Origin: a virus | Direction: 5' to 3' (one strand) | Length of the DNA stretch: 20,162 nt | Virus record (IMG/VR): IMGVR_UViG_3300023174_005216 | Span: 1-20,162 of that record | Part shown: positions 3,603 through 8,582 of the stretch, piece by piece | Layout: each line of letters starts with the position of its first letter | Position numbering within the stretch: the stretch's first letter is position 1 | Translations under genes and position numbers: made by a program | The notes under the pieces: generated by a model | Database searches by the model: none | The model's input: the letters and a program-made list of their open reading frames with translations, nothing else | Told to the model about the DNA's origin: nothing

Positions 3603-3616
3603 CTAATAAGTACTTG

Positions 3617-4054
3617 ATGAAAAAACTTTTAATACTCTTACTTGTTGTGCCTTGCTTGGTACTAGCACAACCCAAACAAAAACCTGGTGTAGTGTATGAT
3701 GCTGTGATCACTCGAGTGATCGACGGCGATACTGTGGGCATACAAGCTACATGGTTACCTGCACCACTCAAACCTGAACTCAGCATTCGTGTGTACGGTG
3801 TGGACACGCCAGAAAAAGGCTTTAGAGCACAGTGTCCCAGTGAAGCCCAACGCGGCGAAGCTGCCTCAGCATTCACCAAGCAACTGATTGCCAACAGTCA
3901 GAAGCGTCAAATTGTGCTCATGGACTGGGACAAGTATGGCGGCCGTGTGCTGGGCGATGTTATACTAAATGGTGTTAGCCTGCGTCAACAGTTGATTGCT
4001 AATGGATTTGCTCGAGAATATTACGGCGAAGCTAAAACTAGTTGGTGTAATTGA
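3617..4054 (+). CDS. Exported thermonuclease-like nuclease (SNase fold)
   Basis: I choose the ATG at 3617 (145 residues), because it opens with a signal peptide: MKK, a hydrophobic run to about residue 16, then AQPK with a likely cut after Ala17. A longer frame from 3569 would bury this signal and overlap the upstream gene. The mature part has all landmarks of staphylococcal-nuclease-family enzymes, Ca-dependent nucleases that cut DNA and RNA: RVIDGDTV (D38), IRVYGVDTPE (R58, D63, T64, E66) and DKYGGR with the second catalytic Arg. A C-terminal NGFAREYYG segment follows, as in the family. The likely site of action is the periplasm or outside. It lies between a fibre-like gene and the terminase, so it may be made late. 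Confidence 0.88.
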   Translation: MKKLLILLLVVPCLVLAQPKQKPGVVYDAVITRVIDGDTVGIQATWLPAPLKPELSIRVYGVDTPEKGFRAQCPSEAQRGEAASAFTKQLIANSQKRQIVLMDWDKYGGRVLGDVILNGVSLRQQLIANGFAREYYGEAKTSWCN

Positions 4055-4076: not shown

Positions 4077-4083
4077 GTAAATA
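4077..4083 (+). promoter_or_regulatory. T4-type late promoter motif directly before the terminase ATG
   Basis: The heptamer GTAAATA ends 4 bases before ATG 4088 and is followed by CT, as in T4 late promoters (TATAAATA, start about 6 bases downstream). This would put the transcript start at or within one base of the start codon. No good Shine-Dalgarno lies in the usual window; an AGGG sits about 15 bases upstream of the ATG. Function is inferred from motif and placement. Confidence 0.5.
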
Positions 4084-4087
4084 CTGC

Positions 4088-5638
4088 ATGCCCGCAGTCA
4101 CCGAAACAGCACTAATTAAAAGTCCGTACGCAAGTACATTGTACACAGACGAGCAAATCGACGAGTTTGCAAAGTGTGCTGACCCCGTTAATGGTCCATT
4201 GTATTTCATGGATCATTTTTTCTATATACAGCACCCTACCAAAGGTAGAATGTTGTACCATCCATTTGAGTATCAACGCAGACTGGTAGAAACATATCAC
4301 AACTATCGTTTCAGCATCTCAATGATGCCTCGACAAACTGGTAAGTCAACTTCGGCCGCAGGCTATTTGTTATGGTATGCAATGTTTGTACCTGATTCAA
4401 CTATCTTGGTTGCGGCTCACAAATACACAGGCTCACAAGAGATCATGCAACGTATTCGGTATGCTTATGAAAGTGTGCCCGATCATATCAGAGCCGGTGT
4501 AACAAGTTACAACAAAGGTAACTTAGACTTTGACAACGGCAGCCGTATTGTTTCAGCAACTACTACAGAAAATACCGGTCGTGGTATGTCCATCTCCCTG
4601 CTGTACGCAGACGAGTTTGCGTTTGTGCGTCCCACCATAGCCACAGAGTTTTGGACTTCTATTAGCCCCACACTGGCCACAGGTGGTAAAGCCATTATCA
4701 CATCAACTCCCAACAGTGACGAGGATCAATTTGCGCTGTTATGGAAAGGTGCCAATCGTTGTGAAGATGAATTTGGTAATCCCACAGAAGTGGGCATGAA
4801 CGGATTCAAATCATATCGTAGTTTTTGGAACGAGCATCCAGATCGTGATGAAACATGGGCCAAGCAACAACGTGCGGCACTTGGTGTAGATCGTTTCCGT
4901 CGAGAAATGGACTGCGAATTCATCATCAATGATGAAACACTGATTGCTCCGGCCAAACTATTTGATTTGCAAGGTGTGGACCCAACCTACAAAACAGGCG
5001 AAGTTCGCTGGTACAAAAAGCCACAATCTGGTAGAATATATTGTGTGGCATTGGATCCCAGTCTTGGTACTGGCGGTGACCCGTCGGCTATACAAGTGTT
5101 TGAAGCTGATACCACAGAACAAGTGGCCGAGTGGCGACACAACAAAACTGATATCCCCACTCAAATTCGAATTTTAATCAACATTATTCAACAAATATAT
5201 GATATTACCAGAGACGACAAAAGCATCTACTACAGTGTTGAAAACAACTCAATTGGCGAAGCTGCCTTGATATCAATCAATGAATACGGCGAACAAAACA
5301 TAAAAGGTTATTTTTTAAGCGAGCCCGGACGAAATCGCAAGGGTTTTAACACCACAAACAAGCCAAAACTAGCAGCCTGTGCCAAGCTCAAGCACTTGAT
5401 CGAAAGCAATAAAATGAAGATCAAAAGCCGAAGTTTGGTAAGTGAATTAAAAACATTTGTGGCAGTTGGCGTTGGATATCAAGCCAAACAAGGCGAAACT
5501 GACGATTTAGTAATGTCAACATTGTTGACTGTTAGAATGTTGCAGGTTTTACAGAGCTATCACAGCGATCTTGACTCACACATGCGTGATCATGCTGACA
5601 GCATAATTGAGCCTTTGCCATTTGTTATGACATTGTAA
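4088..5638 (+). CDS. Terminase large subunit, gp17-like packaging ATPase/nuclease
   Basis: The motor that pumps DNA into the prohead and cuts the concatemer. The 516 residues contain the whole two-domain enzyme. ATPase: Walker A PRQTGKST (81-88), Walker B LLYADEF with D175 and catalytic E176, and the coupling motif IITSTPNS (203-210). RNase-H-like nuclease: acidic residues D323 (VALDPSLG), E385 (YYSVENNS) and D472/D473 (ETDDLVMS), matching the three acids of T4 gp17. It is shorter than T4 gp17 (610 residues), mainly at the N-terminus. No small-terminase gene precedes it and no tail-sheath gene follows, unlike the T4 order 16-17-18. ATG 4088 lies just after a late-type TAAATA motif. Confidence 0.96.
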   Translation: MPAVTETALIKSPYASTLYTDEQIDEFAKCADPVNGPLYFMDHFFYIQHPTKGRMLYHPFEYQRRLVETYHNYRFSISMMPRQTGKSTSAAGYLLWYAMFVPDSTILVAAHKYTGSQEIMQRIRYAYESVPDHIRAGVTSYNKGNLDFDNGSRIVSATTTENTGRGMSISLLYADEFAFVRPTIATEFWTSISPTLATGGKAIITSTPNSDEDQFALLWKGANRCEDEFGNPTEVGMNGFKSYRSFWNEHPDRDETWAKQQRAALGVDRFRREMDCEFIINDETLIAPAKLFDLQGVDPTYKTGEVRWYKKPQSGRIYCVALDPSLGTGGDPSAIQVFEADTTEQVAEWRHNKTDIPTQIRILINIIQQIYDITRDDKSIYYSVENNSIGEAALISINEYGEQNIKGYFLSEPGRNRKGFNTTNKPKLAACAKLKHLIESNKMKIKSRSLVSELKTFVAVGVGYQAKQGETDDLVMSTLLTVRMLQVLQSYHSDLDSHMRDHADSIIEPLPFVMTL

Positions 5639-5644
5639 TAAATA
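5638..5644 (+). promoter_or_regulatory. T4-type late promoter motif directly before the gene at 5651
   Basis: ATAAATA, overlapping the terminase stop codon, ends 6 bases before ATG 5651. T4 late promoters start about 6 bases after their TATAAATA box, so the predicted start would be 5650, one base before the ATG. The 15 bases before the ATG are only A and T, with no Shine-Dalgarno. Confidence 0.5.
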
Positions 5645-5650
5645 TAAAAT

Positions 5651-7135
5651 ATGCAAAACAACGCCAATCAAGAATTGTACGAGCTACTGTTAACACATGA
5701 CTTTGAACCAGTAGTCAAAGATAAACATAATAACCCCATTGAAGATGGTAGTAAAGGGGAAGTGTTTATCTTCAAGTTTAAAACTGCCAATCGTGACTAT
5801 GGAACTGTGGTGATATTGCTCAAAAGCAGTAAAGAAATGTTGGTTATGTTTGGTGATAATTTTGGTCGTAGCATGGAAGGCGATGACAAAACAGCCTGGC
5901 TGGACTTTTTAGAACAACTGAAGCATTTTGCTGTGTCACACGGATTCATGGATTTCAAGATAGAAAATATCAACAAGCTTAAATTTACCATGCAGGGTAT
6001 GGCTGCCATTCAAGAAGGCTTGTTTGAAGGATTCTACGGCAAAAAACGCATAAGCTACAGTGATCAGCCCAAACAAGTTCGATTGATGATCAAACACAAT
6101 CGAGACTTGGGTGAAGGTGAAGCAAGGCACAAAGCAATTGACAGCATTTTTGTTGAGACCAGCGAAGGTGAACGCTTCAAGGTACCAACTCGCAGTTTGA
6201 TGCATGGAAGAATGTTGGCCAGACATGTGTGCGAAGGCGGCAGTCCTCACGATGCATTTGGACAGCATATAAACAATGTAATTTCAGAAATGGGAACTCT
6301 GGCTCGATTTATACGAGCCACCCGTGGACGCCAATTTGATGAGTCAACAATGGCCTTGACGGAAACAGCAATACGCCATTATCAAGACCTCAAGGCCAAG
6401 GCCAAACGCATGTTGGGTCAACGTGGCTATTTTGAGGAGCGAGAAAGTTTTGATCCAGCTGCCTTTACCGAAAGTGAAGTAGTAGTTGATACAATTAGAG
6501 AAATGTTCATTGAACAAACTGTGGACCAACGCATCGAAGAAGCACTGCCATACTTGGCAAAAATACAACAAGCCGTAAAGGAAGATGACATGAAAGAAGT
6601 TAACGAATTTGAATCGTGGGCCAATGGCCTTGCCGAAGGTACCTGGTCCTTGCCTGATACCCCCGACCAACAAAAAGAACTACAACAATTAATGAGCAAA
6701 CCATTGATAGTTGGCGCTGATGCCACCAACGCCACTGAGCAACTGTACGACCTGGTCGGCGATGATATATTGTTTGATCGACTGAATGATCTAGCTGATC
6801 GAGACGCCAGTGCCAACGCCTGGGATGATCCAGACGTAATGAATCGACTTCGTGAATTAGGTGTAGAGCCTGTTGTTGCCCAGAATACTCAAGTTGCCGA
6901 TGAAGGCTTTGGTGACACAGTTAAGAAAGTTGGTGGCGCTATTGCACAAGGTGCCAGCAAAGCCTTTGATAAATTGGGCGGTGGTACTGATCAAGAGTTG
7001 TTGGACAAACTACGCAAGGATGCAGGCCTGCCACCAAGAATGGCCACACCAAATGAACCTAAAAAACAAGACTTTGAGGAAGACCTTGACACCGACGGTG
7101 TCATGATGACACGTCCATCAAACATGAGCAGTTGA
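5651..7135 (+). CDS. Large conserved phage protein of unknown function
   Basis: A 494-residue hydrophilic protein. Three zones are visible. Residues 1-120 are mixed alpha/beta, starting with a segment that begins NQELYELLLTHDFEPV. About 121-390 is mostly helical and highly charged, including ESWANGLAEGTWSLPDTP followed by a PLIVGADATNATEQLYDLVGDD stretch, which I recall in hypothetical proteins of aquatic T4-like phages. The C-terminal 110 residues are a flexible acidic tail with a short amphipathic stretch (DTVKKVGGAIAQ). There is no nucleotide-binding, catalytic or membrane motif. It follows the terminase after 12 bases and ends at a terminator, so it belongs to the late packaging/structure block. 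A virion or head-assembly role is possible but unproven. Confidence 0.8.
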   Translation: MQNNANQELYELLLTHDFEPVVKDKHNNPIEDGSKGEVFIFKFKTANRDYGTVVILLKSSKEMLVMFGDNFGRSMEGDDKTAWLDFLEQLKHFAVSHGFMDFKIENINKLKFTMQGMAAIQEGLFEGFYGKKRISYSDQPKQVRLMIKHNRDLGEGEARHKAIDSIFVETSEGERFKVPTRSLMHGRMLARHVCEGGSPHDAFGQHINNVISEMGTLARFIRATRGRQFDESTMALTETAIRHYQDLKAKAKRMLGQRGYFEERESFDPAAFTESEVVVDTIREMFIEQTVDQRIEEALPYLAKIQQAVKEDDMKEVNEFESWANGLAEGTWSLPDTPDQQKELQQLMSKPLIVGADATNATEQLYDLVGDDILFDRLNDLADRDASANAWDDPDVMNRLRELGVEPVVAQNTQVADEGFGDTVKKVGGAIAQGASKAFDKLGGGTDQELLDKLRKDAGLPPRMATPNEPKKQDFEEDLDTDGVMMTRPSNMSS

Positions 7136-7158
7136 CCTAAAACACAACTTCTGACAAA

Positions 7159-7183
7159 AAAAGGCAGATCTTTCTGCCTTTTC
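7159..7183 (+). terminator. Intrinsic terminator ending the late structural block
   Basis: A perfect 10-bp stem, AAAAGGCAGA paired with TCTGCCTTTT around a TCTT loop, with the 3' arm running into a T-rich tract. It lies 23 bases after the stop at 7135 and separates that unit from the ssb promoter. The A-tract on the other side could let it act in both directions. Confidence 0.85.
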
Positions 7184-7185
7184 CT

Positions 7186-7214
7186 TTGACATACTAAATA
7201 AAAGCACGTATACT
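7186..7214 (+). promoter_or_regulatory. Strong sigma70-type promoter for ssb
   Basis: TTGACA (7186-7191) and TATACT (7209-7214) are separated by exactly 17 bases, close to the ideal bacterial sigma70 promoter. It begins right after the terminator, and the expected start near 7221 gives a leader of about 65 bases before ATG 7287. Host RNA polymerase could therefore transcribe ssb early in infection. Confidence 0.8.
7194..7200 (+). promoter_or_regulatory. Late-type CTAAATA motif inside the ssb promoter
   Basis: CTAAATA lies in the spacer between the -35 and -10 boxes of the sigma70-type promoter. The same heptamer has been described as a late promoter in T4-like cyanophages. If used, transcription would start near 7206, giving an 80-base leader. 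ssb could then be read early and late from overlapping promoters. Confidence 0.4.
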
Positions 7215-7228
7215 CAGTGAAGTGTACG
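7207..7228 (+). promoter_or_regulatory. Imperfect stem-loop at the ssb transcription start
   Basis: CGTATACT (7207-7214) can pair with AGTGTACG (7221-7228) across a 6-base loop, with one G-T wobble. It overlaps the -10 box, so it could be a protein-binding dyad, or a 5' hairpin in the longer late-type transcript. T4 gp32 represses its own translation through leader structure, which makes this worth noting, but chance is possible. Confidence 0.25.
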
Positions 7229-7286
7229 TTTGTATAAACTATACTAGGCTTACATAGGCATTTTTAATTCTGAAAGGTAAAACACT

Positions 7287-8267
7287 ATGGCATCATTAGC
7301 AGACATCCGCGCAAGACTCGCAGCCGCTGAGTCCAACAAAGGCGGTCAATCACAAGGCGGCGACAACGCAATTTATCCCCACTGGAACATGGACGAAGGT
7401 AGTTCGGCAACACTCCGATTCTTACCCGACGGCAACTCAAAGAACACATTCTTCTGGGTTGAACGTGCCATGATCAAGTTGCCATTTAATGGCATCAAAG
7501 GTGAGATGGACTCCAAACAAGTACAAGTTCAAGTACCATGCGTGGAAATGTATGGCGAAGCCTGTCCTATTTTGGCAGAGGTACGCACATGGTTCAAGGA
7601 CAAGAGCCTTGAGGACATGGGCCGTAAGTACTGGAAAAAACGCAGTTACATTTTCCAAGGTTTTGTGCGCGAGAACCCACTGGGCGATGACAAGACTCCA
7701 GAAAATCCAATTCGACGTTTTATTATTGGACCACAAATTTTTCAAACCATCAAGGGTGCATTAATGGACCCTGAGTTGGAAGAGTTGCCAACAGATTTGT
7801 TGCGTGGTTTAGATTTTAAAATTACCAAGACCAGCAAAGGTGGTTATGCTGATTACTCTACTTCCAAGTGGGCTCGAAAAGAATCAGCATTAACCGAAGC
7901 CGAGCAAGAAGCTTTGCAAGCACATGGTCTTTATAACTTAAATGATTTCTTGCCTAAGAAACCCACTGATGTTGAACTCAAGGTCATGAAAGAAATGTTT
8001 GAAGCCAGCGTAGATGGTCAACCATATGACCAAGAACGATGGGGTCAATATTTCCGCCCAGCTGGTATGACTGCTCCAGCCAGCGCCGCCGGTACAACTC
8101 CACGTGCAGTGGCAGCACCAGCCGTGACTGACGAGGATCCACCATTTGATGTTGGTGATGCACCAGCACCGTCTGTGGCAACAGCGCCGGTTCAAAGCAA
8201 ACCAGCGACCAGTCAGAAAGCCGAGGACATCTTGGCCATGATTCGTAACCGGCAAAAACAGTCTTGA
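7287..8267 (+). CDS. Single-strand DNA-binding protein, gp32-like
   Basis: A 326-residue protein of the T4 gp32 type, which coats single-stranded DNA and coordinates replication and recombination. Recognisable parts are the N-terminal helix (MASLADIRARLAAAES), the core opening with IYPHWNMDEGSSATLRFLPDG (30-49), PCVEMYGEACPI (84-95), the basic/aromatic RKYWKKRSYIFQGFV (113-127) and IGPQIFQTI (147-155). Two things differ from T4. Of the His-Cys-Cys-Cys zinc ligands only C85 and C93 remain, and the position expected for the last Cys is L96. The tail is a Pro/Ala linker with an internal DEDPPF (282-287), then a basic helix AEDILAMIRNRQKQS instead of an acidic end. GAAAGG lies about 10 bases before the ATG. 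The gene has its own promoter and terminator. Confidence 0.92.
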   Translation: MASLADIRARLAAAESNKGGQSQGGDNAIYPHWNMDEGSSATLRFLPDGNSKNTFFWVERAMIKLPFNGIKGEMDSKQVQVQVPCVEMYGEACPILAEVRTWFKDKSLEDMGRKYWKKRSYIFQGFVRENPLGDDKTPENPIRRFIIGPQIFQTIKGALMDPELEELPTDLLRGLDFKITKTSKGGYADYSTSKWARKESALTEAEQEALQAHGLYNLNDFLPKKPTDVELKVMKEMFEASVDGQPYDQERWGQYFRPAGMTAPASAAGTTPRAVAAPAVTDEDPPFDVGDAPAPSVATAPVQSKPATSQKAEDILAMIRNRQKQS

Positions 8268-8275
8268 TAGACACC

Positions 8276-8303
8276 ACAGCCCACTTAGGTGGGCTGTTTT
8301 TTT
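8276..8303 (+). terminator. Intrinsic terminator after ssb
   Basis: A perfect 9-bp GC-rich stem, ACAGCCCAC paired with GTGGGCTGT around a TTAG loop, followed by seven T residues. It starts 9 bases after the ssb stop and closes the monocistronic ssb unit. Confidence 0.93.
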
Positions 8304-8321
8304 CATGCTTTTTAGTTTCAA

Positions 8322-8328
8322 GTAAATA
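8322..8328 (+). promoter_or_regulatory. T4-type late promoter motif directly before the gene at 8334
   Basis: GTAAATA ends 5 bases before ATG 8334 and lies 18 bases after the T tract of the ssb terminator, so the downstream operon needs a promoter here. With T4 late-promoter spacing, the start would fall exactly on the A of the ATG. No Shine-Dalgarno is present. Confidence 0.5.
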
Positions 8329-8333
8329 GTGTT

Positions 8334-8582
8334 ATGGAAAACAATCAAAACCATTTAACTGAAGTAGAACAAAGCTACTGGCAACATCTAGTGCACAGCT
8401 TTAAACAAAGCAATGCCTTGATTGTGATTGCTGTAAAAAGTTATATTCATGGTGTGTTTCCTATGTTTTTTGCAGGCGATGGCCCCACCGGCATCTATAA
8501 AATCTACAAAGAAATTAGGCGTATGCATCATGTAATTCGAATATTCAAAGAATACGATGCAAACCACAAAGACAAACAATAA
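8334..8582 (+). CDS. Small membrane-associated protein, DUF6356-like
   Basis: An 82-residue protein with the layout I associate with DUF6356: an N-terminal HLTEVEQSYWQHLVHSFK helix (7-24), a hydrophobic stretch of about 20 residues containing IHGVFPMFF (38-46), and a short positively charged C-terminal helix after a GPTGI turn. The hydrophobic part could be one membrane segment or a hairpin. Family function is unknown; members occur in bacteria and phages. It is the first gene after the ssb terminator and overlaps the next gene by 26 bases. The family name is from memory of the motif pattern, so moderately certain. Confidence 0.65.
   Translation: MENNQNHLTEVEQSYWQHLVHSFKQSNALIVIAVKSYIHGVFPMFFAGDGPTGIYKIYKEIRRMHHVIRIFKEYDANHKDKQ

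Follow-up and report, generated by a model that had tools for sequence, protein, structure and literature searches.

Our analysis of a 20,162-nt stretch of viral DNA (the window), which is the entire IMG/VR record IMGVR_UViG_3300023174_005216, a 20-kb fragment, and of its relatives indicates that late promoters of the gp55 type, marked by a TAAATA box, very probably yield leaderless late mRNAs, with leaders of 0–3 nucleotides (nt), in a manner specific to a lineage of uncultured jumbo phages of the T4 superfamily. The promoter is identified as such because of its box, the lack of a −35 element, the presence of gp55 genes and the class of genes served, whereas leaderlessness is predicted because of the spacing between box and ATG, a bias in the initiating bases and the absence of Shine-Dalgarno motifs. 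The polymerase, the RNA start and the mode of translation are all inferred from DNA sequence. The phage of the window belongs to the T4 superfamily, with a gp17-type terminase, a gp32-like single-stranded DNA-binding protein (SSB) and UvsX- and UvsY-like genes, and its near relatives are jumbo-sized.

TAAATA boxes directly upstream of three start codons

An earlier note on this DNA had drawn attention to three TAAATA boxes that end shortly before the ATGs at 4088 (4 nt), 5651 (6 nt) and 8334 (5 nt), and all three were recovered at these distances. The features concerned, together with a neighbouring gene that serves as a contrast, are as follows.

4078..4083, + strand: late-type promoter box (TAAATA) for the large terminase, 4 nt ahead of the ATG at 4088; kept in L001, L002, L003, L006, L016 and other homologous loci
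4088..5638, + strand: large terminase (gp17-type), predicted leaderless; PHROG terminase, E 1e-112; 53% identity to the PA5oct terminase
5639..5644, + strand: late-type promoter box (TAAATA) immediately 3′ of the terminase stop codon, 6 nt ahead of the ATG at 5651; exact box in 88/88 homologous loci
5651..7135, + strand: gene for a virion structural protein (phrog_13484), predicted leaderless; 88 homologous loci, 69 distinct
7287..8267, + strand: gp32-like SSB gene, the contrast case, with a Shine-Dalgarno motif and no near box; 77/77 homologous loci alike
8276..8303, + strand: intrinsic terminator-like hairpin and T run closely upstream of the box at 8323; −17.3 kcal/mol, z −3.68; by folding and scan
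8323..8328, + strand: late-type promoter box (TAAATA), 5 nt ahead of the ATG at 8334; a pyrimidine precedes the ATG
8334..8582, + strand: DUF6356 gene, 82 aa, predicted leaderless; Pfam PF19883, E 8.5e-12, in register from residue 6

No Shine-Dalgarno motif was found within our script's search window before any of the three boxed genes. The rule for T4, which places TATAAATA at −13 to −6 (PMC1524935), predicts RNA starts at 4089, 5650 and 8334, the same values that the note had given. The three ATGs look like the true starts: the ATG at 4088 is also the start position in the 87% identical homologue L001, the 88 loci homologous to gene 5651 align close to its N-terminus, and residues 6–62 of the open reading frame (ORF) at 8334 align to positions 6–62 of the DUF6356 profile.

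Taken by itself, the window holds three matches to TAAATA-N4–7-ATG against 1.08 expected, which is not significant, with 14 of 100 shuffles giving at least three; TAAATA as such is even rarer in it than chance (7 found, 15.8 expected). Since the statistics of the window alone are weak, its relatives supply the decisive evidence.

The distance between box and ATG is bimodal in related genomes

Using terminase homology we collected 80 IMG/VR loci, and some of their parent records were taken for a test at the scale of genomes. This set of relatives consists of eight IMG/VR records with 1.65 Mb (G001–G006 and G010 whole, and 140 kb of the 147.6-kb G007) plus the 20-kb window; G003, G002 and G001 are the records behind loci L077, L065 and L021. 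Whole genomes of PA5oct, T4 and Syn9 served as controls. All genes were called by a simple ORF script, and a Shine-Dalgarno motif was defined as GGAG, GAGG, AGGA, AAGG, GGTG or GGGA located 4–18 nt before the ATG. Counts include near-identical loci unless they are given as distinct.

TAAATA-to-ATG distances across the eight records and the window peak at 4–8 nt (the near class), are sparse at 9–16 nt and rise to a second mode that begins at 17 nt (the far class). ATGs with open frames follow the box at 4–7 nt in 147 cases, compared to about 2.3 per position at 9–15 nt. Each of the large genomes G001–G003 contains 21–31 cases at 4–7 nt, while anagrams of the hexamer reach a mean of 3–4. Counted on both strands of the whole records, TAAATA-N4–8-ATG occurs 44, 50 and 47 times in G001–G003 versus 17, 9 and 11 times for N10–14. 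Unlike TAAATA, the hexamers TAAATT, TAAATG and TAATAA form no near-ATG peak in the relatives, and TAAGTA forms a weak one. The sharp peak foretold by the earlier note for 4–6 nt is thus present, at a slightly broader 4–8 nt, as is the enrichment over other A/T hexamers, whose absence the note had named as evidence against its idea.

The near arrangement is specific to this lineage among the genomes compared. The 4–7 nt class is empty in T4 and Syn9 and has one member in PA5oct, and no excess of 4–8 over 10–14 nt like that of G001–G003 was seen in PA5oct, Phosso, Atu_ph07, Vibrio 2.275, 121Q, T4, Syn9 or P-SSM2.

Shine-Dalgarno motifs, start codons and initiating bases

Approximately 2 of 133 near genes carry a Shine-Dalgarno motif, as opposed to 71–100% of the far genes per record and 29–43% of the genes without a box. 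Because the box itself occupies the space of a Shine-Dalgarno motif, we ran a control with other A/T hexamers at 4–7 nt, which are accompanied by such a motif in 44 of 452 cases, compared to 3 of 122 for TAAATA. This control shrinks the contrast but leaves it standing.

The near position is also selective for the start codon. Among frames open for 80 codons that begin 4–7 nt after TAAATA, 147 start with ATG, 4 with GTG and 8 with TTG, and the latter two stay under their own background. At a spacing of 5 nt, a C or T precedes the ATG in 40 of 44 genes, compared to 45–54% in genes with a Shine-Dalgarno motif. At a spacing of 7 nt, the fifth nucleotide after the box is an A in 23 of 29 genes, mostly followed by two pyrimidines, and G is absent from nucleotides 5–7. 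The resulting form, TAAATA-N4-ACT-ATG, recurs across records and would give a 3-nt ACU leader.

The far class points to the same position. Here 68 genes have a Shine-Dalgarno core that begins 5–9 nt after the box, and two have one that begins closer than 5 nt. As near-class ATGs and far-class Shine-Dalgarno motifs alike begin at nucleotide 5 or later, this edge appears to mark the RNA start; it lies within one base of the start given by the T4 rule (box at −13 to −6; PMC1524935).

Conservation of near boxes at individual genes

Gene 5651 has 88 homologous loci with 37–64% identity, 69 of them distinct by the sequence around the start, and every one of the 88 carries an exact TAAATA 4–7 nt before the ATG; in 52 of the 69 distinct homologues the spacing is 7. 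The SSB neighbour served as control, with a Shine-Dalgarno motif in 77 of 77 loci and a near box in none. In the recognisable homologues of gene 5651 from cultured phages the box lies further away: 21 nt from the ATG in Phosso and 29 nt in 121Q, both with a Shine-Dalgarno motif, and 14 nt in Vibrio 2.275, with no clear one. PA5oct gp278, found by homology search, has a TAAATA well upstream and AAGG between box and start, and the likeness of Atu_ph07 gp108 to gene 5651 is positional only.

The large terminase gene (terL) is less uniform. An exact near box occurs in 20 of its 80 loci and a one-mismatch form in 18 others, some of these possibly by chance. None of these 38 boxed loci has a Shine-Dalgarno motif, compared to 13 of the 42 others, and on the terL tree the exact-box state switched at least six times. 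In L007, L029, L040, L052 and other homologues, which group on this tree, TAAGTA replaces TAAATA at a spacing of 5, suggesting a variant box of a terL subclade.

Genes behind near and far boxes and probable identity of the promoter

To assign gene classes, we compared the genes of the records with named PA5oct proteins. Far boxes precede the genes for the tail tube (8/8 records), the head-tail adaptor (8/8) and the sheath (6/7), and near boxes those for gp25 (5/5) and the portal (4/6). No box was found at UvsX, DnaB, primase or SbcD among the PA5oct-matched genes, and ribonucleotide reductase, DNA polymerase, PhoH and ClpA have an occasional box, mostly a distant one. A PHROG scan of G003 lists portal, gp25, virion structural proteins, homing endonucleases and radical-SAM proteins among the near genes, and sheath, baseplate wedge and gp55 itself among the far genes. 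Boxes therefore precede late structural genes and only rarely replication genes, as expected for T4-type late promoters. In line with this, gp55 homologues are present in all four large records searched (G001–G004; E 2e-60 to 7e-72) and also in PA5oct, and the logo of the near class shows no conservation of a −35 element.

Large arrays of tRNA genes also occur in G001–G003, with tRNA-Met(CAT) in G003 and G002; tmRNA-like genes are found in G002 and G001, and bS21 is encoded by G001, G003 and G006. That the bS21 and tRNA-Met genes bear on leaderless translation is only suggestive.

A model for leaderless late mRNAs and its alternatives

In the proposed mechanism, TAAATA would form the core of a late promoter of the T4 type, which the host RNA polymerase would recognize together with phage gp55, as suggested by the gp55 genes of the large relatives. 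RNA would begin at the fifth or sixth base after the box, and many late promoters would be placed such that this start coincides with the A of the ATG or lies up to about 3 nt before it, as in the ACT-ATG class. An RNA start at or near the ATG would make the mRNA leaderless and translated without a Shine-Dalgarno motif, with ribosomes presumably binding the 5′-terminal AUG. Other late genes, such as those for sheath, tube and head-tail adaptor, would be leadered, with the box 15–28 nt away and a Shine-Dalgarno motif in between. As judged from the genomes compared, the arrangement is lineage-specific, and the same genomes also use what appear to be leadered late promoters. The earlier note had proposed late genes expressed as leaderless mRNAs that start at the ATG. 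The spacing peak, the missing Shine-Dalgarno motifs, the preference for ATG, the initiating bases and the edge at nucleotide 5 all support this, with the amendment that the predicted leader measures 0–3 nt and is not always zero.

Several observations weigh against this model. About half of the terL homologues are without a box, indicating that for terL the near arrangement is common but not universal. Applied strictly, the T4 rule would have RNA begin 1 nt into the ATG at a spacing of 4. Gene calling relied on a crude ORF script and on metagenomic records. The gp45 model phrog_223 matched none of nine records, which is uninformative as PA5oct was unmatched as well. Finally, the T and A of TATAAATA at −13/−12 are not conserved in the near class. 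However, several other T4-like phages show little conservation of T at −13, Aeh1 has C at −12, and these sequences are still counted as late promoters (PMC1524935). Because the same loosening occurs there, we treat the missing conservation as a mark of a variant late promoter and not as grounds for exclusion.

Instead of a promoter, the near TAAATA could be an A/U-rich translation-initiation element that replaces the Shine-Dalgarno motif in longer mRNAs. It does take the place of this motif in the near class, at a distance plausible for a ribosome site. However, the same hexamer is found 17–30 nt upstream ahead of a Shine-Dalgarno motif that almost never starts closer than 5 nt to it, which is promoter-like behavior, and other A/T hexamers show no comparable peak. 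The initiator bias at the ATG, the gp55 genes and the terminator closely upstream of one box likewise fit a promoter, as do the cultured homologues of gene 5651 with their boxes 14–29 nt away. We thus consider a translation element unlikely.

It is also conceivable that late promoters do lie near the ATG but that RNA starts further inside the gene or at scattered positions, with translation from an internal start led by a Shine-Dalgarno motif. The start predicted inside the ATG at a spacing of 4 would agree with this. Such internal initiation would leave unexplained why the bias is for ATG only and why a pyrimidine-A pattern occurs at that same ATG, and the Pfam match of gene 8334 is in register from residue 6, which makes it quite improbable. 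That the peak is a by-product of tight gene packing, with upstream TAA stop codons falling shortly before the next ATG, as the box at 5639 directly after the terminase stop codon might suggest, is scarcely credible and was rejected, since the TAA-initial hexamers TAAATT, TAAATG and TAATAA have no near peak, T4, Syn9 and PA5oct lack a near class, and gene 5651 keeps the exact hexamer in 88/88 loci.

Further features of the window

Upstream of the terminase lies a tentative fourth case.

3607..3612, + strand: TAAGTA variant box (tentative), 4 nt before the ATG at 3617; few homologues boxed
3617..4054, + strand: SNase-like nuclease gene, possibly leaderless; the N-terminus resembles a signal peptide; Pfam PF00565, E 4.6e-11

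We keep gene 3617 tentative because few of its homologues carry the box. It adjoins the terminase gene, and the sequences upstream of its homologues vary, as if the gene were mobile.

Upstream of the SSB gene, the window contains a near-consensus sigma-70 promoter, TTGACA-17-TATACT, at 7186–7214. A TAAATA at 7195–7200 falls within its spacer, so that an early and a late promoter possibly overlap. A stable hairpin with a T-rich stretch at 7155–7188, seen by folding only, precedes this promoter and is terminator-like.

Comparison with known systems

T4 late promoters (gp55/gp33/gp45; Tevenvirinae) resemble the promoters proposed here in their TAAATA core, the lack of a −35 element and their location before late structural genes, and G001–G004 encode a gp55 homologue. 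In contrast, the box described here is a 6-mer compared to TATAAATA in T4, no TAAATA was found 4–7 nt before an ATG in T4, and 76% of the T4 far class has a Shine-Dalgarno motif. Aeh1 shares a CTAAATA late consensus, but near-ATG placement is not mentioned for Aeh1 and the T4-like phages with altered consensus in the consulted passages of PMC1524935. The closest cultured relatives by terminase (53% identity) are the PA5oct-like jumbo phages (Wroclawvirus), which possess gp55 but differ in that PA5oct lacks the near class, apart from one case at 4–7 nt, and has the gp278 box well upstream, followed by AAGG.

Bacterial leaderless genes and lambda cI use host-type promoters, whereas a phage late promoter is proposed here. 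What they share with the predicted late mRNAs is a 5′-terminal or nearly terminal AUG without a Shine-Dalgarno motif, and translation of leaderless mRNAs is aided by initiator tRNA and, mostly, IF2 (PMC9031893). Transcript starts have also been mapped in the jumbo phages AR9, with leaders of 26–491 nt (PMC5312081), and phiKZ, where late RNA begins at the G of TATG (PMC4666361). Given these leader lengths and the G start, neither phage yields a 5′-AUG by rule and neither is a precedent. The word "leaderless" is absent from a review of T4 post-transcriptional control (PMC3014915), and our literature search, which covered papers mostly outside the subscription journals, found no earlier report of leaderless T4-like late genes.

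Implications

Late transcription in T4 has long served as a model system, and its late genes, as far as examined here, have leaders. If the late promoter also determined the start codon, this would add a new arrangement to the system, seen here in many public metagenome records. It would guide the choice of start codons in annotating such genomes and offer, under a single type of promoter, naturally occurring genes with and without leaders. The model directly predicts RNA that begins at a 5′-AUG late in infection.

The split between near and far boxes may help to set output, as sheath and tube would be leadered and gp25 and many portal genes leaderless, a conjecture drawn from a handful of genes. 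We tentatively suggest, as a possibility short of a probable one, that the lineage fused late-promoter firing and translation start for a subset of its late genes and kept leaders for abundant proteins. If so, late output would be set partly by the presence of a leader, and infected cells would need ribosomes that initiate efficiently at a 5′-AUG late in infection.

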